Shown here: positions 4,372 to 21,618 of the stretch, piece after piece
How the letters are laid out: the number at the start of each line of letters is the position of its first letter
Position numbering within the stretch: position 1 is the stretch's first letter
IMG/VR virus record: IMGVR_UViG_3300027784_000510
Span: 1-22,122 of that record
Reading direction: 5' to 3' (one strand)
Length of the DNA stretch: 22,122 nucleotides
Source of the DNA: a virus
Position numbers and translations under genes: made by a program
Notes under the pieces: generated by a model
What the model saw: only the letters and a program-made list of their open reading frames with translations
The model's database searches: none
What the model was told of the DNA's origin: nothing

Positions 4372-4737
4372 TCACCTCATCCCGAGTTCGGCTTGGCGCT
4401 CTCGGACCAACTCCTCGGTGTACTCCTCCTGGTACAGCCGCTCGTAGACATCCGGGTACATCTCACCCAGCCGAGACAAGGCTCGCTGCCGCGCCTTGTG
4501 GTAGCGACGACGGTGTGGGTCCTGTGAGCGCCCACTCACCCGGCGACTGCGCTCCCTGGAGTTGCGACAGTCCTTGCAGCGCGTCTCCAGGGGCTGCTCC
4601 TTGCCCCGGCTGTGGAAGTAGTCCCTGGTCCATGGGAACTCACGACGACACCCAGAGCACTCGCGCCAGAGCACACCGTTCACTTCGTGACGCTCCGGCG
4701 GTTTCAGCGGAACAGTCCGACGCTTACGGGAGGCCAT
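4372..4737 (-). CDS. Zinc-ribbon protein
   Basis: 121 aa from the ATG that overlaps the NADAR stop by 14 bases. A zinc site is visible as CSGCRREFP near residue 27 and CKDCRN near residue 54, separated by an aromatic/basic stretch (WTRDYFHSRGKEQPLETR). This arrangement is common in small phage proteins related to HNH or recombination-associated zinc ribbons, but no His-Asn-His residues follow. The C-terminal half is an Arg/Glu-rich helix (RRRYHKARQRALSRLGEMYP). Nucleic-acid binding is likely; the specific function is unknown. Confidence 0.6.
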   Translation of the reverse strand: MASRKRRTVPLKPPERHEVNGVLWRECSGCRREFPWTRDYFHSRGKEQPLETRCKDCRNSRERSRRVSGRSQDPHRRRYHKARQRALSRLGEMYPDVYERLYQEEYTEELVRERQAELGMR

Positions 4738-5224
4738 GGCTCTCCACCATGAGTCGGTTGCGAGTCTCCATGAGGATGACACCGAGCCAGTTCAGCCCGT
4801 CGCCCTCGTACACGCCCCAGAAGCGGTCTTCCCATGTGTTGCCCTCGACCAAGAGCGCAGGAGCAGTCTCCAGCAGTTGTTGGCCAAGTTCGGGGTTGCC
4901 GAAGAACTTCTGCTGCACGAGATCACGCATGATGTCGATCTTGACCTCCTCCCAGTCAGGACGAAGCCGAACGCCTCTCCCCGTCATCTTGGCCTCCCCA
5001 GGACTGGACGCCTGGCAGATCTCACGGATGTACTTCGGAGAGGTCGACTTGGCTGCCTGGAAGGCGTGCTCGACAGTGGCGCACTCCTGTCTACGAGACA
5101 GGTTGGTCTTGAACAGATGGCGATCATCCAGCACAACTGGGCTGGGGTGGAAGTTCGACAGGAAGTCGTACTCGGTCCCATCGAAGAAGTCGATCACTGG
5201 CAGATCCTGGCTCAGTCTCATCAT
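4724..5224 (-). CDS. NADAR-domain protein (YbiA-like ADP-ribose glycosidase family)
   Basis: 166 aa, a single NADAR domain of typical length. Signature segments appear in order: FFDGTEYDFLSNFHPSPV, ATVEHAFQAAKSTSP, MTGRGVRLRPDW, KIDIMRDLVQQKF, and NTWEDRFWGVYEGDGLNWLG. NADAR enzymes cleave N-glycosidic bonds of ADP-ribose derivatives, and family members are reported to remove ADP-ribose from guanine in DNA. A phage copy could therefore counter host DNA ADP-ribosylation defence or act in NAD metabolism; this is inference. The ATG overlaps the nuclease stop (ATGATGA). Confidence 0.85.
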   Translation of the reverse strand: MMRLSQDLPVIDFFDGTEYDFLSNFHPSPVVLDDRHLFKTNLSRRQECATVEHAFQAAKSTSPKYIREICQASSPGEAKMTGRGVRLRPDWEEVKIDIMRDLVQQKFFGNPELGQQLLETAPALLVEGNTWEDRFWGVYEGDGLNWLGVILMETRNRLMVESHGLP

Positions 5225-6054
5225 CGCTTCTTCCTGATCTTCCGCTGCTCTCGTGGCCAGTCGTAGGTCGACAGGCAGGCATGGGCGAAGGGGCACGTCT
5301 TGAACGGACCCTGCCGCTTCTTGCACTCGTCGAGCACAGGCGGCAACTCCTCGTTCAGCACGTACCCCTGCAAGTCGTGGATCTCGGCCTCGACCTCCTT
5401 CATCAACTTCGGGTCTGGCCTGACCACGAACTCCTTCCACTCCTGTGTGTCCTTGTTCTCATAGCACAGACTCCACACATCGATATCGGGCCTGGCAACG
5501 AAGTAGGCGTGGATCTGAAGCAGGTGAGCGATGTCCGGCCCCTGGTCAAGGACGAATCGGTACTTGTGGGAGTTGGCACCCTTGAGTTCCCAGCCGAACT
5601 TCGCGTCCCGGATCATGCCAAGCCGGTCGGCCAACTCAGGCGGGATGGTCCCGATCCCGTCGATGGTCCCGGTCAGCCAGAGTTGGTCGTACTTCTGGAA
5701 GACCTCAACGTCATCGAGGATGCCCGCTTCCAGGAGCCACATCTGCCAGCGCATGTGCCGGAAGGTCCCGTCATGGAAGATGGCGTGTAGGTCTGCGTTC
5801 AGCGGGCTGACTGGCTTCACGTCAGTGAACCAGAACACCTGCTGCCTGCGACACGCTCCTCTGGATGACGCGGAGAACGTCATCGTCCGATCTCGTTGTG
5901 GCGTGCCCAACTCGGCCTGGAGCACCCGGTCTATGGTCTCCTGGCTCGGCTCGATGTTGCCGTTGCGCGACAGCCACTCGTCAAGGCGAGGTGTGACGAG
6001 CAGATCGGAGTCGCTCGCTGACCTCGCCTGGCTGAGGATCCTCTTGAGGCTCAC
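5221..6054 (-). CDS. Cas4/RecB-like PD-(D/E)XK exonuclease with iron-sulfur cysteines
   Basis: 277 aa. The nuclease core is visible as LTGTIDGIG (Asp132), GWELKGAN (Glu156, Lys158) and LLQIHAYF (Gln180). Cys68 in the N-terminal part plus Cys244, Cys254 and Cys260 (CKKRQGPFKTCPFAHAC) give the four-cysteine pattern that holds an Fe-S cluster in Cas4 and AddB proteins. The family degrades single-stranded DNA ends and takes part in recombination or end processing. No cas genes or repeat array are near, so this is a stand-alone phage nuclease. The start is GTG, overlapping the preceding stop as GTGA. Confidence 0.85.
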   Translation of the reverse strand: MSLKRILSQARSASDSDLLVTPRLDEWLSRNGNIEPSQETIDRVLQAELGTPQRDRTMTFSASSRGACRRQQVFWFTDVKPVSPLNADLHAIFHDGTFRHMRWQMWLLEAGILDDVEVFQKYDQLWLTGTIDGIGTIPPELADRLGMIRDAKFGWELKGANSHKYRFVLDQGPDIAHLLQIHAYFVARPDIDVWSLCYENKDTQEWKEFVVRPDPKLMKEVEAEIHDLQGYVLNEELPPVLDECKKRQGPFKTCPFAHACLSTYDWPREQRKIRKKR

Positions 6055-15940: not shown

Positions 15941-16207
15941 GTGAGCGTCTACACAGAGCCTGTCTGGGAGGAACCGCCCATGCACGCGCGCCAACGCGGC
16001 TACGAGGACGTGCTGAGGCCGCTCATGGACAAGCCTGAGCATTGGGCGCGCATCGGGGAGTACGCCTCGTCTGACAGCGCCTACCAAGCCGCTCGCAACC
16101 TTCGTCAGCGCAAGTACCGCGTTCCTGCTCCCGATCACGAGTGGGAGTTTGTCCACTTTGGGCAGTTCGTCTGGGCTTGCTACTACGGCGAGGTTGACAG
16201 GGACTGA
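15941..16207 (+). CDS. Hypothetical protein
   Basis: 88 aa from a GTG with GAGGAG 6 bases upstream. The middle, DKPEHWARIGEYASSDSAYQ followed by AARNLRQRKYRVPAPDHEWE, resembles small phage proteins with a helix-turn-helix-like substrate or DNA contact region, but I cannot name a family. The end is aromatic (FVHFGQFVWACYYGEVDRD). A weak hairpin CGATGG/CCATCG lies in its leader (15908-15929). It is the first gene of the plus-strand arm, and its last codons contain the -35 of the next promoter. Confidence 0.65.
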   Translation: MSVYTEPVWEEPPMHARQRGYEDVLRPLMDKPEHWARIGEYASSDSAYQAARNLRQRKYRVPAPDHEWEFVHFGQFVWACYYGEVDRD

Positions 16208-16221
16208 ATGTGTGGTATAAT
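16194..16221 (+). promoter_or_regulatory. Promoter P1
   Basis: TTGACA at 16194-16199 and TATAAT at 16216-16221, both perfect sigma-70 consensus, with 16 bases between them. GTGTGG sits immediately before the -10. The predicted transcript starts near 16228 and runs through two hairpins, GTGA/TCAC with inner GGC/GCC (about 16230-16250) and CCAGATTT/AAATCTGG (16255-16288), before reaching P2. Confidence 0.85.
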
Positions 16222-16307: not shown

Positions 16308-16336
16308 TTGACAAACCCTCATGTGTGTGGTATAAT
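16308..16336 (+). promoter_or_regulatory. Promoter P2
   Basis: TTGACA at 16308-16313 and TATAAT at 16331-16336 with a 17-base spacer ending in GTGTGG. This is a near-ideal strong promoter. An inverted copy of part of the motif (ATACCACCACA, 16291-16301) lies just upstream and could form a dyad with the -10 flank. It drives a long stretch without a credible gene. Confidence 0.88.
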
Positions 16337-16633
16337 ATAGGTTAGAAAGATGGAGATAGGAAAGGTTCTCCATCCCCTCCCGCTCCGGTAAATCGAGTCA
16401 CTGCCCCACCCGGTAGCACTCGGCAAGATCTGGAGCCAGTGGCGAGATCGAGCACCACTCAAGATCTCTACCCTGAGAGGGCGTCAGAGACTCACCCGCT
16501 CATCGACAACACCAACGGGTAGGCCCCTGAAATGGGTCGAGGGTGAAAGGCCCTCGTAATCTAAGAGGAGCACCTCGTACCGAACGCCGATCACGGCAAC
16601 AGAGGTCACGCGACCCGGATAACGCTTGGATCG

Positions 16634-16709
16634 CATCGAAGGAAGAGTCCGAAACGCTCGCAAGATGAGCGTCACTGGGTGAGACCCCCAGTCTGATGAG
16701 GCTTCGATG
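16634..16709 (+). ncRNA. Type II hammerhead ribozyme R0
   Basis: All core elements are present: GAAA (16651-16654); stem III ACGCTC/GAGCGT with loop GCAAGAT; GUC with predicted cleavage after 16673; stem I ACTGGG/CCCAGT (16674-16692); CUGAUGA (16693-16699). Stem II is CC/GG next to the core, then an unpaired GAAGAGT on one side, then CATCGAAG/CTTCGATG (8 pairs). It lies inside the long noncoding RNA, not before a gene, and has no sequestering hairpin. Confidence 0.85.
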
Positions 16710-17200
16710 AAGGCATCGACAGAGACTGCACGGCAGTTGGGGCGATGCTGGAGAGCGCTTCATATGAGACCAGGAGAGCCACGAGCCTGAAGCAAGTGAC
16801 AGTGGCTTAGGTCTGTGACCAGATTGCGCTGCATAGACCGAAGATAAACTCAGAACCCTTCGCCGCGTGGGGTGCGGCGAAACATCAAGTCAAAGTCCCC
16901 CACCGCAGCGCCATACGGATGACACCAGTCAGGAAGAACCGTCACTCGCGCTGCACCCTCTCACAAGATCGGCCTGGTGGCCACGCTATCCAAACCCTAG
17001 TGAAGCGTGAGAGTAGAACCTACCGGTCTTGCTCCTGAGACGCTGATGGCAATCCGGTCGAGCCATTTGTACTCCACACGGCGGTGGAGACCGGCACAGG
17101 AACCGAGAGGGCAACAGACTTTGCGCTGATGGCAGCCCAATGGGCGTACACCGCCAGCCATTTGCACCGGGAAGGGCGTCCCGGACCAGCGCACCACCTG

Positions 17201-17218
17201 ACCCGCCTTCTGGCGGGT
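17201..17218 (+). terminator. Terminator-like hairpin ending the noncoding RNA
   Basis: ACCCGCC and GGCGGGT pair around TTCT, followed by CTTGTTGG. The hairpin is stable but its U-run is imperfect. It lies 11 bases before the first ribozyme of the gene array. I see no other promoter before that array, so read-through must feed the downstream genes if P1 and P2 are their source. Confidence 0.6.
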
Positions 17219-17229
17219 CTTGTTGGTAT

Positions 17230-17283
17230 CTGGATGCAGAAACGCTACGGCGTCGCGGCACAGCCGCCTGATGACGCATCCAG
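17230..17283 (+). ncRNA. Type II hammerhead ribozyme R1
   Basis: Stem II CTGGATGC/GCATCCAG (8 pairs); GAAA 17239-17242; stem III ACGC/GCGT capped by a UACG tetraloop; GUC with cleavage after 17254; stem I GCGGC/GCCGC with loop ACA; CUGAUGA 17268-17274. The base pair next to the core (10.1-11.1) is C-A instead of the usual G-C. CUGAUG can alternatively pair with CAUCAG at 17286-17291, and a second CUGACGAG copy (17294-17301) follows before the ribosome site. Confidence 0.9.
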
Positions 17284-17316
17284 CGCATCAGCACTGACGA
17301 GTCCACAGGAGATGCC

Positions 17317-17472
17317 ATGAACAAGCAGCAGATCATCAACTTCGCCAAGACCACCGGCAAGAGCGCTGTGCAGAGTGCTGCCGCCGCTGTCGCAGTGGCA
17401 ACCGCCCAGCAGTTGCTCAACGGCCGGACGGTCAACGGGAAGAAGATCGTGCTCTTCACGGCCAACCGTTGA
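17317..17472 (+). CDS. Small hypothetical protein, first cistron of the ribozyme array
   Basis: 51 aa with AGGAG 5 bases before the ATG. The sequence has a basic N-terminal helix (NKQQIINFAKTTGKSAVQ), an Ala/Val-rich helix (SAAAAVAVATAQQLLNG) and a short basic strand (RTVNGKKIVLFTANR). The Ala-rich part is amphipathic to weakly hydrophobic. No family is recognised. The gene is bounded by hammerheads R1 and R2; its stop codon overlaps the first base pairs of R2 stem II. Confidence 0.7.
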   Translation: MNKQQIINFAKTTGKSAVQSAAAAVAVATAQQLLNGRTVNGKKIVLFTANR

Positions 17473-17528
17473 GGACGAAACGCCCCTCACGGGGCGTCGT
17501 CGGCTAACAGCCGGCCTGATGAGTCCTT
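17471..17528 (+). ncRNA. Type II hammerhead ribozyme R2
   Basis: Stem II GAGGAC/GTCCTT with a canonical G-C next to the core; GAAA 17477-17480; stem III ACGCCCC/GGGGCGT, loop TCAC; GUC with cleavage after 17498; stem I GTCGGC/GCCGGC, loop TAACA; CUGAUGA 17516-17522. Stem II begins inside the TGA stop of the preceding gene. The alternative hairpin CUGAUGA/UCAUCAG (17516-17534) has 7 perfect pairs and a 5-base loop. The second core copy seen in other units has decayed here. Confidence 0.95.
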
Positions 17529-17556
17529 CATCAGCACCAGTACCAAGGAGACCCCA

Positions 17557-17709
17557 ATGCTCTACAACAAGATCCTCCCGCATGTCGGGCACAGGATCGA
17601 AGCCGTCACTTACGGTGCCGACGAAATCGGGCCGATCAATGCCGCGATCGAGTGCCACGACTGCCACGAGATAATCGTTGATGAAGACAGGGGCGATGAC
17701 AGGTACTAG
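17557..17709 (+). CDS. Small hypothetical protein
   Basis: 50 aa with AAGGAG 6 bases before the ATG. It contains HVGHRIEAVTYGADEIGPIN and then AAIECHDCHEIIVDEDRG. The CHDCH segment, together with the earlier HVGH, could bind one metal ion, but this is speculative. The tail is acidic with a final RY. It ends in TAG, whose last G is the first base of R3 stem II. Confidence 0.65.
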   Translation: MLYNKILPHVGHRIEAVTYGADEIGPINAAIECHDCHEIIVDEDRGDDRY

Positions 17710-17767
17710 GACACAGAAACCCGGCATCAGGCCGGGTCACGGGCAAAGCCCGTCTGATGACGTGTCC
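17709..17767 (+). ncRNA. Type II hammerhead ribozyme R3
   Basis: Stem II GGACAC/GTGTCC with a C-A pair next to the core; GAAA 17716-17719; stem III ACCCGGC/GCCGGGT, loop ATCAG; GUC with cleavage after 17738; stem I ACGGGC/GCCCGT, loop AAA; CUGAUGA 17754-17760. CUGAUG can pair instead with CAUCAG (17772-17777). A second CUGACGAG follows at 17780-17787, 5 bases before the AGGAG ribosome site. Confidence 0.93.
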
Positions 17768-17802
17768 AGCGCATCAGCACTGACGAGCCTACAGGAGAGA
17801 TC

Positions 17803-18063
17803 ATGTTCGAGACTATCGGGATCATGGCCCTCAACTACGGCAAGCAGGTGGCGACGCACCCGGCTACGCGAGCCGCTGTCTGCGCCGCGCACACCGCCCT
17901 GGTCGGTGCGGTCACGTACCAGAACGCTACGGAAGCCTACCGCAGCGGGAAGGAGACCGGACACGCGATGAAGGGTCTGGTGTCGCACGCGCGATCCAGC
18001 CTCAGCAAGAGTCAGGACACCACTTTCATTGCCGGTAGTGACGGCGTGAGCCAGGTCGCATGA
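17803..18063 (+). CDS. Small hypothetical Ala-rich helical protein
   Basis: 86 aa with AGGAG 5 bases before the ATG. It is mostly helical: FETIGIMALNYGKQVATHPA, TRAAVCAAHTALVGAVTYQN, ATEAYRSGKETGHAMKGLVS, then a Ser-rich tail. The central helix is Ala-rich and weakly hydrophobic, similar in style to other cistrons of this array. The family is not recognised. The stop lies 6 bases before R4 stem II. Confidence 0.7.
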   Translation: MFETIGIMALNYGKQVATHPATRAAVCAAHTALVGAVTYQNATEAYRSGKETGHAMKGLVSHARSSLSKSQDTTFIAGSDGVSQVA

Positions 18064-18069
18064 CACCAA

Positions 18070-18130
18070 GGGCGAAACGCCCCGCAACCAGCGGGGCGTC
18101 TGACCGCTGGAAGGCGGCACTGACGAGCCC
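18070..18130 (+). ncRNA. Type II hammerhead ribozyme R4 (no lock hairpin)
   Basis: Stem II GGGC/GCCC, 4 pairs with canonical G-C at the core; GAAA 18074-18077; stem III ACGCCCCGC/GCGGGGCGT, loop AACCA; GUC with cleavage after 18100; stem I TG/CA plus CCGC/GCGG with one bulged A; CUGACGA 18120-18126. This unit has a single core copy: the segment that carries the alternative hairpin in other units is absent, so it should be unregulated by that mechanism. Confidence 0.88.
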
Positions 18131-18148
18131 CAAAGCACAGGAGAAGGC

Positions 18149-18433
18149 ATGAGGATCATCTGCCCAAACTGCGGGCCAGTCTACGGAAGAGTCAACTTGT
18201 TCATCCATTTTGATGTGACCATTAGCAACGAAGGAGTCGAGAGAATACCAGAGGATGCGATATTTGAGTTCCCATCCATGATTCGCTTCGCGTGCGGTGA
18301 ATGTCACAACCTTTCGATGGAAGAGGAAGACAGGTCCGTCGACGAGCCTGAGCAACTACGGAACAGAGTCTTTGACATGCTTCTAAGAGACTTTGAGGAA
18401 GTTCGTCACAACACACTTGTCGAAGGACAATAA
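18149..18433 (+). CDS. Small zinc-ribbon hypothetical protein
   Basis: 94 aa with AGGAG 5 bases before the ATG. Two Cys pairs, IICPNCGPVYG at residues 3-13 and FACGECHNLSM near residue 48, form a zinc ribbon split by a beta-rich insert (RVNLFIHFDVTISNEGVERI). The C-terminal part is an acidic helix (EPEQLRNRVFDMLLRDFEEV). Metal binding is likely. It is notably lower in GC than its neighbours, suggesting a different origin. The stop TAA touches R5 stem II. Confidence 0.7.
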   Translation: MRIICPNCGPVYGRVNLFIHFDVTISNEGVERIPEDAIFEFPSMIRFACGECHNLSMEEEDRSVDEPEQLRNRVFDMLLRDFEEVRHNTLVEGQ

Positions 18434-18492
18434 GGAACCAGAAACGCCGCAGCCAGCGGCGTCGCCGGAACAGACCGGCCTGACGAGGTTCC
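18434..18492 (+). ncRNA. Type II hammerhead ribozyme R5
   Basis: Stem II GGAACC/GGTTCC, 6 pairs, with an extra unpaired A before GAAA (18441-18444); stem III ACGCCGC/GCGGCGT, loop AGCCA; GUC with cleavage after 18463; stem I GCCGG/CCGGC, loop AACAGA; CUGACGA 18480-18486. The lock partner is CGUCAG (18496-18501). Both sides differ from the CUGAUG/CAUCAG version and still pair. The second core copy is degenerate (CTCCGAG). Confidence 0.92.
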
Positions 18493-18521
18493 GCCCGTCA
18501 GCACTCCGAGAAGGAGACACC

Positions 18522-18656
18522 ATGTCTGACTATGTGTTCATCATCAATGGCGACCCGGAGCAACACGAGTTCCGATCCGAGGTCATTGCGACTCGCGTCG
18601 CGATCTCGATGGGCAAGTCCCAAGAGGACGTGACTCTGGTCGCCCGACAGCCATGA
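18522..18656 (+). CDS. Small hypothetical protein
   Basis: 44 aa with AAGGAG 6 bases before the ATG. The frame is open further upstream but that part is the ribozyme, so this start is preferred. The protein reads as a strand pair and helix: SDYVFIINGDPEQHEFRSEV, IATRVAISMGKSQEDVTLVA. It may be a tiny alpha/beta unit that binds a partner. No family is recognised. Its stop lies 3 bases before R6 stem II. Confidence 0.68.
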   Translation: MSDYVFIINGDPEQHEFRSEVIATRVAISMGKSQEDVTLVARQP

Positions 18657-18659
18657 CGC

Positions 18660-18718
18660 GGACACAGAAACGGGGCAGCCAGCCCCGTCATGGGCACAGC
18701 CCATCTGATGACGTGTCC
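18660..18718 (+). ncRNA. Type II hammerhead ribozyme R6
   Basis: Stem II GGACAC/GTGTCC with a C-A pair next to the core; GAAA 18667-18670; stem III ACGGGGC/GCCCCGT, loop AGCCA; GUC with cleavage after 18689; stem I ATGGGC/GCCCAT, loop ACA; CUGAUGA 18705-18711. The alternative hairpin is one of the three longest in the array: CUGAUGAC/GUCAUCAG, 8 perfect pairs (18705-18727), with the stem II strand GTGTCC as its hexaloop. A second CUGACGAG lies at 18729-18736. Confidence 0.95.
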
Positions 18719-18755
18719 GTCATCAGTACTGACGAGTCTTTGACAGGAGCATCAA

Positions 18756-19016
18756 ATGCCCGACATCGACGACATCGATCAGCCAGACACTGCCCTAAGC
18801 GGAGTGAAGTTTGTCTACTGCATGTCCCACATGCGTGGGCACCCCGTAGGGGTCTGCACCGTACCGATCAGGAACAAGATCCCTCTCTGGGCTTCAACTA
18901 TCGATGAAGCCGCTATAGAGATACGAGATCGCAACTTCCCTGATCTTTCTGGTGAGACACGACGTGGTGCCAACATCGACTGGAGCATAAGCGGAGGCAT
19001 ACAAGTTCGCCGCTAG
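18756..19016 (+). CDS. Small hypothetical protein
   Basis: 86 aa with AGGAG 6 bases before the ATG. After an acidic N-terminus (MPDIDDIDQPDTALSG) it appears beta-rich: VKFVYCMSHMRGHPVGVCTV, PIRNKIPLWASTIDEAAIEI, then NIDWSISGGIQVRR. The YCMSHMRGH segment has Cys and His residues that might bind a metal. The function is unknown. The last G of its TAG stop is the first base of R7 stem II. Confidence 0.68.
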   Translation: MPDIDDIDQPDTALSGVKFVYCMSHMRGHPVGVCTVPIRNKIPLWASTIDEAAIEIRDRNFPDLSGETRRGANIDWSISGGIQVRR

Positions 19017-19073
19017 GAGCCAGAAACGCCCCGCACGGGGCGTCGCGGGCAGAGCCCGCCTGACGACGGCTCC
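19016..19073 (+). ncRNA. Type II hammerhead ribozyme R7
   Basis: Stem II GGAGCC/GGCTCC with a C-A pair next to the core; GAAA 19023-19026; stem III ACGCCCC/GGGGCGT, loop GCAC; GUC with cleavage after 19044; stem I GCGGGC/GCCCGC, loop AGA; CUGACGA 19060-19066. The lock hairpin CUGACGAC/GUUGUCAG (19060-19081) keeps 8 pairs through a G-U, with GGCTCC as hexaloop. A second CUGACGAG lies at 19084-19091. Confidence 0.95.
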
Positions 19074-19107
19074 GTTGTCAGCACTGACGAGTCCCAAGGA
19101 GAAGATC

Positions 19108-19461
19108 ATGGCGCATCTCGGTGAACCGATCTACCCAGATGTCGAATGGGTGTGGAACGAGGTTTGCGGGATGGGCTGGTGGCAGTCCAAGGACATCAGG
19201 GATGAGTACAGGTGGCTTGAAGAGCAGGTGGCTAATCAGCCATCAGATGGCATCAAGGGAAGGTACATCTCATTCCCGGTTGCTGACGGCAAGGCCGTCT
19301 ACTACGTCGAGAAACTTCGGCCACTCACTCTTCGCCCTGTAATGTTCGGTGACTGCTACCAGATTCCAGACGCACACATCCGTGGCCTCACCCGCTCTGA
19401 CATCGAGGAGATGGTGGAGCGCGAGAAGCGAATCCAAGAGATCTTTAGCCGTAAGGCTTGA
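19108..19461 (+). CDS. Hypothetical protein, largest of the array
   Basis: 117 aa with AAGGAG 6 bases before the ATG; an upstream in-frame ATG falls in the ribozyme region and is rejected. The protein has a Trp-rich first part (DVEWVWNEVCGMGWWQSKDI, RDEYRWLEEQ), a probable beta middle (RYISFPVADGKAVYYVEKLR) and a helical C-terminus (SDIEEMVEREKRIQEIFSRK). No family is recognised. Its TGA stop overlaps R8 stem II. Confidence 0.7.
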   Translation: MAHLGEPIYPDVEWVWNEVCGMGWWQSKDIRDEYRWLEEQVANQPSDGIKGRYISFPVADGKAVYYVEKLRPLTLRPVMFGDCYQIPDAHIRGLTRSDIEEMVEREKRIQEIFSRKA

Positions 19462-19520
19462 GGACGAAACCGGGGCAGCCAGCCCCGGTCGTCGCCTAGA
19501 TAGGCGGCCTGACGAGTCCT
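19460..19520 (+). ncRNA. Type II hammerhead ribozyme R8 (no lock hairpin)
   Basis: Stem II AGGAC/GTCCT with canonical G-C at the core; GAAA 19466-19469; stem III ACCGGGGC/GCCCCGGT, loop AGCCA; GUC with cleavage after 19490; stem I GTCGCCT/AGGCGGC, loop AGAT; CUGACGA 19509-19515. The ribosome site AAGGAG comes only 2 bases after stem II, so this is the minimal unit: one core copy and no alternative hairpin. Confidence 0.95.
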
Positions 19521-19532
19521 GAAGGAGCAAGC

Positions 19533-19757
19533 ATGAACAACCTCGACTGGCACCTGCGCTACAACTTCTACCCGCCGCTTGGTTGGCTTCGGCCGTTCGC
19601 TGAGCGAGCCATCGAGATGGCGGCACAAGGCGTCACTCATCACCCGGTTCGCCTAGAGAGCGGACATGGCCTGGCCGACAACGCAGGTCGGGAGATCACC
19701 GCGCAGGAACTGATCGACGAACTCAGACTGCTTGACCATGTAGACTTGACAGACTAA
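19533..19757 (+). CDS. Small hypothetical protein
   Basis: 74 aa with AAGGAG 5 bases before the ATG. It starts with an aromatic segment (NNLDWHLRYNFYPPLGWLRP) followed by FAERAIEMAAQGVTHHPVRL and a helical acidic end (GREITAQELIDELRLLDHVD). The HH pair may be incidental. No family is recognised. The -35 of promoter P3 overlaps its last codons, so the next cistron has an independent transcript. Confidence 0.68.
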   Translation: MNNLDWHLRYNFYPPLGWLRPFAERAIEMAAQGVTHHPVRLESGHGLADNAGREITAQELIDELRLLDHVDLTD

Positions 19758-19774
19758 GTAGAGTGTGGTATACT
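19746..19774 (+). promoter_or_regulatory. Promoter P3
   Basis: TTGACA (19746-19751), 17 bases ending in GTGTGG, then TATACT (19769-19774). The -10 lies in a dyad, GTGGTA-TACT-TACCAC (19764-19779), a possible operator. The predicted start near 19781-19783 puts ribozyme R9 at the very 5' end of this transcript. Confidence 0.85.
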
Positions 19775-19786
19775 TACCACCACTTC

Positions 19787-19852
19787 GGACGCAGAAACGC
19801 CTGCCCAGTCACAGGCAGGCGTCGCCGGAACCGACCGGCCTGATGAGCGTCC
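19787..19852 (+). ncRNA. Type II hammerhead ribozyme R9
   Basis: Stem II GGACGC/GCGTCC, 6 pairs, with an extra A before GAAA (19794-19797); stem III ACGC plus CTGCC/GGCAG plus GCGT, loop CAGTCACA; GUC with cleavage after 19823; stem I GCCGG/CCGGC, loop AACCGA; CUGAUGA 19840-19846. The lock hairpin CUGAUGAG/CUCAUCAG (19840-19860) has 8 perfect pairs with loop CGTCC. A second CUGACGAG is at 19863-19870, followed directly by TCC and the AGGAGG ribosome site. Confidence 0.95.
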
Positions 19853-19886
19853 CTCATCAGCACTGACGAGTCCAGGAGGTAGCACG

Positions 19887-20123
19887 ATGACCGCGATCTC
19901 CACCATGACCAACACGGTCAAGACCTTCAACAACAGCACCACCGGTCAGGTGACGCTGGCGACCGGGAAGGCGCTTGGCTGGACCCTCCTCGCCATCAAG
20001 GCGAACAGCGAGGCCAGCGCGAACTTCCTGACGGCCGCGACCAAGATCGACGCTGCGCTGAAGGCCAAGACCGATCAGGTCAGGGAGAAGTGGCACACCC
20101 GCACCACTGAGACCGCTGCCTAG
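19887..20123 (+). CDS. Small hypothetical helical protein
   Basis: 78 aa with AGGAGG 7 bases before the ATG. It is Thr/Ala-rich: TAISTMTNTVKTFNNSTTGQ, VTLATGKALGWTLLAIKANS, EASANFLTAATKIDAALKAK, ending TRTTETAA. The middle is a weakly hydrophobic helix similar in character to the first and third cistrons, but without clear identity. Last gene preceded by a ribozyme; it is followed at 25 bases by the next gene with no ribozyme between. Confidence 0.7.
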   Translation: MTAISTMTNTVKTFNNSTTGQVTLATGKALGWTLLAIKANSEASANFLTAATKIDAALKAKTDQVREKWHTRTTETAA

Positions 20124-20574: not shown

Positions 20575-20592
20575 CGTATGACTGGAGACAGG

Positions 20593-21618
20593 ATGGTAGA
20601 GAGCGCTGAGGATCAGGCTCACATCAACCGAATCAAAGGCGCTGCCAAGAGCGCCTACAACGAAGCGCTGCGCGTCATTGACGGTTCGCCACAGCACGTC
20701 GGGAGACTTGGTCGTGGCTACATCATCACTGGATCCGTGAGCCAGTTCATTCGCAAGGGAACTGAGCGCGTCACTGGAGCCAAGCCAGACAAGTCCACCA
20801 TAGAGTACGCGCGCAAGTTCTTGCGCTTATCGAAGAACATGGTGGCGATTCAGAGGGTGGACCTCTACACCTTCAAGATCTTCGTCAGTGATGACTGGCG
20901 AGACCCAGCAATCATGCCCCTGGTCTATCAACGCTCTAATCAATCAGAGGATTGGTACGAGCGCTCGCTTAGTCCCGAGGAAGCAGGCGAGTATCAACCG
21001 ATCGAAGAGGTGTCGATCAAGAAGTTGCCATTTCTTTGCCAGTATTGCTCTTACGGAGCAGAGACACGCGAGATGCTGGAGGCTCACATGACAGAGCATG
21101 GAGGAGAGAAGCAGTACACCTGCAAGCACTGTGGAGAGCAGTTCGACAGTATGCAGCGGCTTGGCGGTCACATGACTGGCTACCACAGCAAGAAGAAGGG
21201 AGAGCAAACATACATGCCTAAGAAGAACAAGCCGCCTCGACACACGATCAAGCCAGACATCCCTGAGTTGGAGTGGAAGGCCACAGCGCAGTGGGACGAG
21301 AACAGAGAGCGCTACGTGTGTCCGAACTGTGATCGTGACTTCCGTACATGGAATGCGCTGGCTCGTCACAAGGAGTGGCACGTCAACGCCTGGGCCAGGG
21401 AGATCGTCAGCAAGCCCACTACAGAGGTGAGCACGCTCTCTGACGATCAACTCCTTGAGGAGTTGAAGGGTCGGATGGGGAACAAGGATCAAGAGAAGGA
21501 GTTGGCGACGCTCAAGGAGCGGCACGAGTTCATTCGGTCCATCGTCAAAGACGTGAACGAAGGCAAGATCGCGCCGCTGAAGGCGCTATCCGATATCGAG
21601 ACGGCTCTGGACCTGTGA
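20593..21618 (+). CDS. Protein with three C2H2 zinc fingers
   Basis: 341 aa. I chose the second in-frame ATG because GGAGA lies just upstream; the first lies directly behind the terminator hairpin with no ribosome site. Three classical fingers are visible: Cys149/Cys152/His165/His169, Cys177/Cys180/His193/His198 and Cys243/Cys246/His259/His263, each with 12 residues between the pairs. GGEKQY joins the first two, like the TGEKPY linker of eukaryotic tandem fingers. Residues 10-110 are an unrecognised basic domain (IKGAAKSAYNEALRVID, RKFLRLSKNMVAIQRVDLYT). The C-terminus is a charged coiled coil (DQEKELATLKERHEFIRSIV). Sequence-specific nucleic-acid binding is likely. Confidence 0.85.
   Translation: MVESAEDQAHINRIKGAAKSAYNEALRVIDGSPQHVGRLGRGYIITGSVSQFIRKGTERVTGAKPDKSTIEYARKFLRLSKNMVAIQRVDLYTFKIFVSDDWRDPAIMPLVYQRSNQSEDWYERSLSPEEAGEYQPIEEVSIKKLPFLCQYCSYGAETREMLEAHMTEHGGEKQYTCKHCGEQFDSMQRLGGHMTGYHSKKKGEQTYMPKKNKPPRHTIKPDIPELEWKATAQWDENRERYVCPNCDRDFRTWNALARHKEWHVNAWAREIVSKPTTEVSTLSDDQLLEELKGRMGNKDQEKELATLKERHEFIRSIVKDVNEGKIAPLKALSDIETALDL

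Follow-up and report, generated by a model that had tools for sequence, protein, structure and literature searches.

Why would a phage place a self-cleaving ribozyme in front of nearly every gene of an operon? The role of bacterial and phage hammerheads has been an open question since their discovery. It is raised anew by IMGVR_UViG_3300027784_000510, a phage fragment of 22,122 bases from IMG/VR (hereafter the window, meaning this whole stretch of DNA), in which ten type II hammerhead units (R0 to R9) lie on the + strand, nine of them directly before small genes, with phage replication genes nearby. In our judgement it is probable that these hammerheads dice the transcript to mostly monocistronic mRNAs, and that a hairpin then consumes the ribozyme core, locks the cut and caps the 5' end.

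The units were identified with a descriptor consisting of GAAA, a stem III of at least four pairs, UH, a stem I of at least four pairs, CUGANGA and a stem II. The scan returned ten units on the + strand and no unit on the - strand of the window. In 60 dinucleotide shuffles of both strands there were two chance matches, neither with a stem II of three or more pairs. The original prediction had named nine units; R1 to R9 were all recovered by the descriptor at the cuts it had proposed, and a tenth, R0, had been overlooked. Its spacing of 226-446 nucleotides between R1 and R9 also held, and R0 lies 581 nucleotides from R1. A covariance model built from 50 units of other phages, with the window sequence excluded, recovered eight of the ten (R0, R2 and R4-R9) at expectation values (E) of 2e-18 to 2e-6, the weakest being 2.2e-6. 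R1 and R3 were found by the descriptor alone. The model match at R3 is weak (E 0.013) and in a different register; a second hammerhead there was ruled out, as GAAA is absent. The Rfam model Hammerhead_II (RF02276) matched R2-R5 and R7 only, at 20.9-34.2 bits. The search with type II models that had been proposed as a check therefore succeeded for most units with the phage-derived model, and only in part, below the gathering score, with the Rfam one. The units are as follows.

16647-16703, + strand: R0, cut after 16673; descriptor, model E 3e-11; outer stem II pairs imperfect
17230-17283, + strand: R1, cut after 17254; A-insert class, C-A at 10.1-11.1; descriptor, no model match at E<=1
17471-17528, + strand: R2, cut after 17498; canonical; descriptor, model E 1.9e-18, Rfam 29.4 bits
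17709-17767, + strand: R3, cut after 17738; A-insert class, C-A at 10.1-11.1; descriptor, Rfam 21.9 bits (below gathering)
18070-18130, + strand: R4, cut after 18100; canonical; descriptor, model E 1.6e-14, Rfam 34.2 bits
18434-18492, + strand: R5, cut after 18463; A-insert class, bulged A; descriptor, model E 8.7e-9
18658-18720, + strand: R6, cut after 18689; A-insert class, C-A; descriptor, model E 2.1e-7
19016-19073, + strand: R7, cut after 19044; A-insert class, C-A; descriptor, model E 9.2e-10
19461-19520, + strand: R8, cut after 19490; canonical; descriptor, model E 3.4e-14
19787-19852, + strand: R9, cut after 19823; A-insert class, bulged A, directly 3' of a promoter; descriptor, model E 2.2e-6

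All ten units have an intact core (CUGANGA and GAAA), three paired stems and the cleavage triplet GUC, with stems I and III closed by loops and stem II open. In R2, R4 and R8 a textbook stem II stands directly against GAAA (GGAC/GUCC, GGGC/GCCC and GGAC/GUCC, respectively), and R0 is built alike with weaker outer stem II pairs. These four have the standard core-flanking pair (10.1-11.1). The other six lack it and are therefore classed as a variant rather than as plain type II members, which contradicts the claim that all nine units are canonical. In each of them (R1, R3, R5, R6, R7 and R9) a stem II of six to eight pairs is followed by an additional A 5' of GAAA. This A lies opposite the C after CUGANGA in R1, R3, R6 and R7, and is bulged in R5 and R9. 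The earlier observation that helix letters vary with pairing kept was seen among these six; because their stem letters differ in this way, the A-insert class looks maintained rather than decayed. A pseudoknot between loop I and the 3' tail occurs in most type II hammerheads; such pairing, between UGG and CCA, is possible in R4 by inspection and is not evident in the other units. In the search for A-insert units elsewhere, a loose pattern gave chance matches only, and a strict pattern for the C-A subclass, outside the scope of which R5- and R9-like units fall, gave none in IMG/VR.

Seven units carry a further element. In R1, R2, R3, R5, R6, R7 and R9, a NUCAG motif located 3' of the 3' strand of stem II is complementary to CUGAN of the core, and the two can base-pair. 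N7 is the single free base of the core. The original prediction had missed this anti-core hairpin, along with additional copies of the hammerhead 3' half that are described below. Seven of ten window units with at least six anti-core pairs correspond to a shuffle P of ~2e-7. The hairpin and the active ribozyme use identical bases and are hence mutually exclusive. Nearest-neighbour folding, a model that ignores tertiary contacts, gave the anti-core pairing a mean probability of 0.96 in the 3' product.

17268-17291, + strand: hairpin of R1, CUGAUG (17268-17273) / CAUCAG (17286-17291), U-A at N7
17516-17534, + strand: hairpin of R2, CUGAUGAG / UUCAUCAG, 8 pairs, one G-U
17754-17777, + strand: hairpin of R3, CUGAUG / CAUCAG
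18480-18501, + strand: hairpin of R5, CUGACG / CGUCAG, C-G at N7
18705-18726, + strand: hairpin of R6, CUGAUGACG / CGUCAUCAG, 9 pairs
19060-19081, + strand: hairpin of R7, CUGACGACG / CGUUGUCAG, 9 pairs, one G-U, C-G at N7
19840-19860, + strand: hairpin of R9, CUGAUGAG / CUCAUCAG, 8 pairs

Is this hairpin preserved in other phages? Several of our scans of phage DNA yield counts that are lower bounds. When type II units were searched for with the base at N7 and the base preceding UCAG both left free, at least 120 stretches were returned; among the matches listed, 111 units on 98 contigs had the fixed spacing, with stems confirmed and duplicates removed. N7 and its partner were U-A in 52, C-G in 55, U-G in 3 and U-U in 1, i.e., Watson-Crick in 107 of 111 units, compared with 55 expected under independence and with related contigs counted separately. 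Their mutual information was 0.85 bits vs at most 0.22 at seven control positions. With look-alikes removed, 86 of 90 units were Watson-Crick at this position, and differences at N7 were compensated in 17 of 18 disjoint near-neighbour pairs of similar units. Units fetched blind to the tail carried a complementary NUCAG in 11 of 80 cases (1.7 expected), and 42 of the 120 listed stretches from a GGCC-stem scan, also blind to the tail, were already in the anti-core set. With G8 and the last stem II pyrimidine included, the hairpin has a four-base loop and reads CUGANG/YNUCAG. Covariation in these units extends to stem II, and selection therefore appears to act on each of the two incompatible folds; the stem-pair percentages are inflated, the units having been chosen by their stems, a bias from which the N7 test is free. 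Bacterial genomes contained only seven loci with a somewhat narrower anti-core pattern, so the hairpin is mainly a feature of viral contigs.

The placement of the units was compared across 271 distinct units from phage DNA, including the ten of the window. Of these, 222 (82%) have a stop codon on the 5' side and an ATG on the 3' side, vs 14% of random positions. The commonest stop position is six or seven bases 5' of GAAA (113 units), which makes the codon overlap stem II on its 5' side; the median distance from the first base of CUGANGA to the ATG is 37 bases. What we observe directly are the sequence elements with their statistics, the N7-partner covariation and this location of the units between stop and start codons.

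As judged from predicted units, hammerhead arrays are common among phages. Two IMG/VR phage contigs have nine units each in the stretch examined, with 10 (L030) and 11 (L315) model matches in the contig; others have 9 (L037), 6 (L159) and 5 (L024). The cultured Streptomyces phages Yara (MH019215), Paedore (NC_054671) and Puginator (PP978857), our L302, L402 and L401, have 8, 12 and 7 model matches, respectively, while Dulem virus 39 has three units and halovirus HRTV-19 one. In the feature tables of the named-phage records, no annotated feature marks the units. In IMGVR_UViG_3300031999_000054 (L053), 11 type I units are interleaved with 4 of type II between 100 and 6023, i.e., 15 in ~6 kilobases. 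These type I units have an open stem I (CCCA/UGGG), and most have a stop codon directly upstream. The idea that type II is used exclusively because it caps both ends is weakened by this mixture.

How could such a series of units operate? Each unit would fold during transcription and cut between the stem III and stem I hairpins. Because a type II cut falls between two closed hairpins, one mRNA would end in stem III and the next would begin, with a 5'-OH, in stem I, so that mostly single-gene mRNAs would be released. In seven of the ten units, CUGAN, its catalytic task done, would then pair with the NUCAG strand. The resulting second hairpin, adjacent to stem I on its 3' side, would block re-ligation, and the ribosome site would be preceded by a structured leader. 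The expression of each gene would become independent of its neighbours and of the promoter used, as in RiboJ. R9 begins about a dozen bases 3' of the -10 box of its own promoter and for that reason would trim both primary and read-through transcripts. In this scheme we infer that the units cleave in vivo, in which order the structures fold, and how stability and expression are affected. Dicing into single-gene RNAs, as originally predicted, seems to account best for the anatomy and has comparative support; what did not stand is its novelty (PMC3088659). Beyond the window, we lean towards the view that many phage type II hammerheads carry CUGANG/YNUCAG as a one-way switch that cannibalises the core, either after cleavage, making it irreversible and capping the end, or before it, as a timer.

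Several observations speak against cutting followed by locking. In the nearest-neighbour model, the uncut precursor folds the anti-core hairpin with a probability of 0.87 and stem II with 0.09, and therefore cutting must win kinetically or via tertiary contacts. R0, R4 and R8 have no anti-core hairpin, and neither do most arrays in other phages. None of the Rfam matches reaches the gathering score of 37 bits (best 34.2). The core-adjacent pair is mismatched or bulged in six units, and Perreault et al. (PMC3088659) rejected candidates with mispairing at this position unless activity was shown. This places the activity of the A-insert units in doubt, and their predicted self-cleavage needs proof. 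Finally, Gordonia phage GMA6, which together with other actinophages has the DnaE closest to that of the window (~42%), gave no model match. Two polymerase relatives (45-49% identity) were likewise without units, L389 by the model and L388 by the descriptor, so none of the nearest relatives that could be found shares the array. No close relatives were found via the helicase, and CAGCACTGACGAGYCC was discarded as a marker of relatives, since it occurs on 14 viral contigs with a hammerhead in none.

The main rival to cutting followed by locking is a timer or translation-gated switch. While completing the upstream gene, a ribosome would mask stem II, which would allow the anti-core hairpin to form and leave the transcript uncut, so that cleavage would report translation or transcription speed. 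Consistent with this, the commonest stop codon position overlaps stem II, folding predictions for the precursor favour the hairpin over stem II, and NUCAG emerges only after the whole ribozyme. However, this last point also favours cleavage first: because the polymerase completes every strand of the ribozyme before it reaches NUCAG, the simplest sequence of events is a cut followed by the lock. In addition, no ligand-like domain is evident, and the hairpin is absent from R4, R8 and most arrays in other phages. We therefore regard an off-switch or timer as unlikely, and the hairpin probably takes the core apart after the cut.

A different role is suggested by five additional copies of CUGACGAGYC, the hammerhead 3' half, that lie between the anti-core hairpin and the ribosome site.

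17294-17304, + strand: half-hammerhead copy CUGACGAGUCC, between the R1 hairpin and the ribosome site
17780-17789, + strand: half-hammerhead copy CUGACGAGCC, after R3
18729-18738, + strand: half-hammerhead copy CUGACGAGUC, after R6
19084-19094, + strand: half-hammerhead copy CUGACGAGUCC, after R7
19863-19873, + strand: half-hammerhead copy CUGACGAGUCC, after R9

Use of the copies as alternative 3' halves for their own unit was ruled out, with 1.1-2.1 being G-A or A-A and stem II mismatched. Nor do they qualify as decoys for the anti-core strand: R7 alone pairs well, and the A-C clash in R1, R3, R6 and R9 means that the copies do not covary with that strand. A single CUGAUGAGUCC on the - strand at the contig edge (18-28), where the GAAA half was not seen, is probably a chance occurrence. 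The copies before genes 1, 3 and 7 could form stem II with the canonical unit that follows the respective gene (GUCC/GGAC, GCCU/GGGC and GUCC/GGAC). These leftovers would be fossil joints if the units were mainly modular joints, whose conserved CUGANGAGUCC and GAAAC blocks serve the homologous recombination of small-gene cassettes, with cleavage being secondary. A 53-nucleotide stretch with a hammerhead unit that is 87% identical between contig L147 and Yara (record 54849-54901), which otherwise share almost no DNA in the compared stretch, points in the same direction and hints that units may be transferred as modules. However, the stems covary instead of keeping their sequence, which argues for selection on folding rather than on sequence identity, and a mainly recombinational role appears quite improbable to us. 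Even less credible is that the hairpin pairs are terminators, RNase processing hairpins or degenerate, inactive hammerheads. The A-insert units do deviate beside the core, but the catalytic letters are intact and all three stems pair in ten of ten units. Terminators in particular were ruled out, as no T run follows the units; the sole terminator-like site on the + strand is at 17200-17219.

The setting of the array is an operon of very small genes on the + strand, 3' of two perfect sigma-70-like promoters, with one gene of 44-117 codons after each of R1-R9 and a good Shine-Dalgarno sequence before every one. Searches of the nine products against PHROG and Pfam gave nothing above the cut-off.

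16194-16221, + strand: sigma-70-like promoter, TTGACA-16-TATAAT, upstream of R0
16308-16336, + strand: sigma-70-like promoter, TTGACA-17-TATAAT, upstream of R0
17200-17219, + strand: terminator-like hairpin with a weak T run, 5' of R1
17317-17472, + strand: gene 1, 51 amino acids, no family match
17557-17709, + strand: gene 2, 50 amino acids, no family match
17803-18063, + strand: gene 3, 86 amino acids, no family match
18149-18433, + strand: gene 4, 94 amino acids, weak zinc-ribbon N-terminus (below cut-off)
18522-18656, + strand: gene 5, 44 amino acids, no family match
18756-19016, + strand: gene 6, 86 amino acids, no family match
19108-19461, + strand: gene 7, 117 amino acids, no family match
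19533-19757, + strand: gene 8, 74 amino acids, no family match
19746-19774, + strand: sigma-70-like promoter, TTGACA-17-TATACT, ending ~12 nucleotides 5' of R9
19887-20123, + strand: gene 9, 78 amino acids, no family match

Between the two strong promoters and R1, some 900 bases (16340-17230) have no convincing gene. R0 lies inside this region, which also holds a predicted structure (16980-17235, z -1.9), the terminator-like hairpin and two similar CGCTGATGGCA...GCCATTTG stretches; it is possibly a noncoding RNA. The replication proteins are encoded on the - strand and include DnaE, a primase and a DnaB-like helicase. Given that the nearest DnaE matches are from actinophages, an actinobacterial host is likely. 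Elsewhere in the window, a 346-amino-acid protein (20578-21618, + strand) has C2H2 zinc fingers (PF13894, 3.7e-11; PF00096, 2e-9), which are uncommon in phages, and no relative of it was found in the phage collection. A NADAR domain (PF08719, 4.8e-27; 4724-5440, - strand) is encoded near a WGR domain (PF05406; 3596-3952, - strand). A function of these two proteins in the handling of nicotinamide adenine dinucleotide or adenosine diphosphate ribose is possible, perhaps in counter-defence.

A unit between nearly every gene in phages that can be cultivated and sequenced makes mRNA dicing directly testable, and the covarying anti-core hairpin offers a precise mutable element, a single base pair, for deciding between lock and timer. 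If cutting followed by locking is true, phages own natural, self-inactivating insulators similar to RiboJ and use them in arrays, which would supply parts for engineering.

How do these arrays relate to known systems? The original prediction held that hammerheads were known only singly in bacteria and phages and that a per-gene array was undescribed, which is wrong. Perreault et al. 2011 (PMC3088659) reported clustered hammerheads flanking individual prophage genes, proposed processing to operon- or single-gene-length mRNAs, and showed that three tandem arrangements cleaved in vitro and one in vivo. The type II architecture, which the window units share, is common in bacteria. The tested tandem detailed in that paper, the ardA triple of Agrobacterium tumefaciens, resembles the window in that several hammerheads flank individual genes, with single-gene mRNAs being proposed, but has three units whereas the window has ten in a row. 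The accessible text mentions no anti-core hairpin, and the A-insert class would fail its filter on the core-adjacent pair. The paper also covers HHphage of haloviruses HF1 and HF2, a hammerhead just 5' of an early gene of a lytic virus with a mapped transcript 5' end near the cut; unlike the window array, HHphage is a single unit with a core variant.

The Rfam family RF02276 shares GAAA, stem III, GUC, stem I, CUGANGA and the open stem II with the window units, R4 fitting best; the extra A and long stem II set six units apart, and scores stay below gathering. In Paedore, Puginator and Yara the units lie between consecutive small genes of one operon, as in the window, but those listed have no anti-core hairpin, and the A-insert class was not seen among them. 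Open-access full text yielded no description of the anti-core hairpin, the A-insert class or these cultured-phage arrays, an absence that is no proof; the anti-core hairpin appears to be new. The closest functional parallel is RiboJ, a hammerhead with a downstream hairpin that normalises the leader (PMC8794103, PMC7536230). Like the window units, it places a self-cleaving hammerhead and then a hairpin 5' of the ribosome site, and the upstream leader is removed. In contrast, RiboJ originates from the satellite RNA of a plant virus and had a separate hairpin element appended to it, whereas the hairpin in the window is made from the ribozyme core itself.

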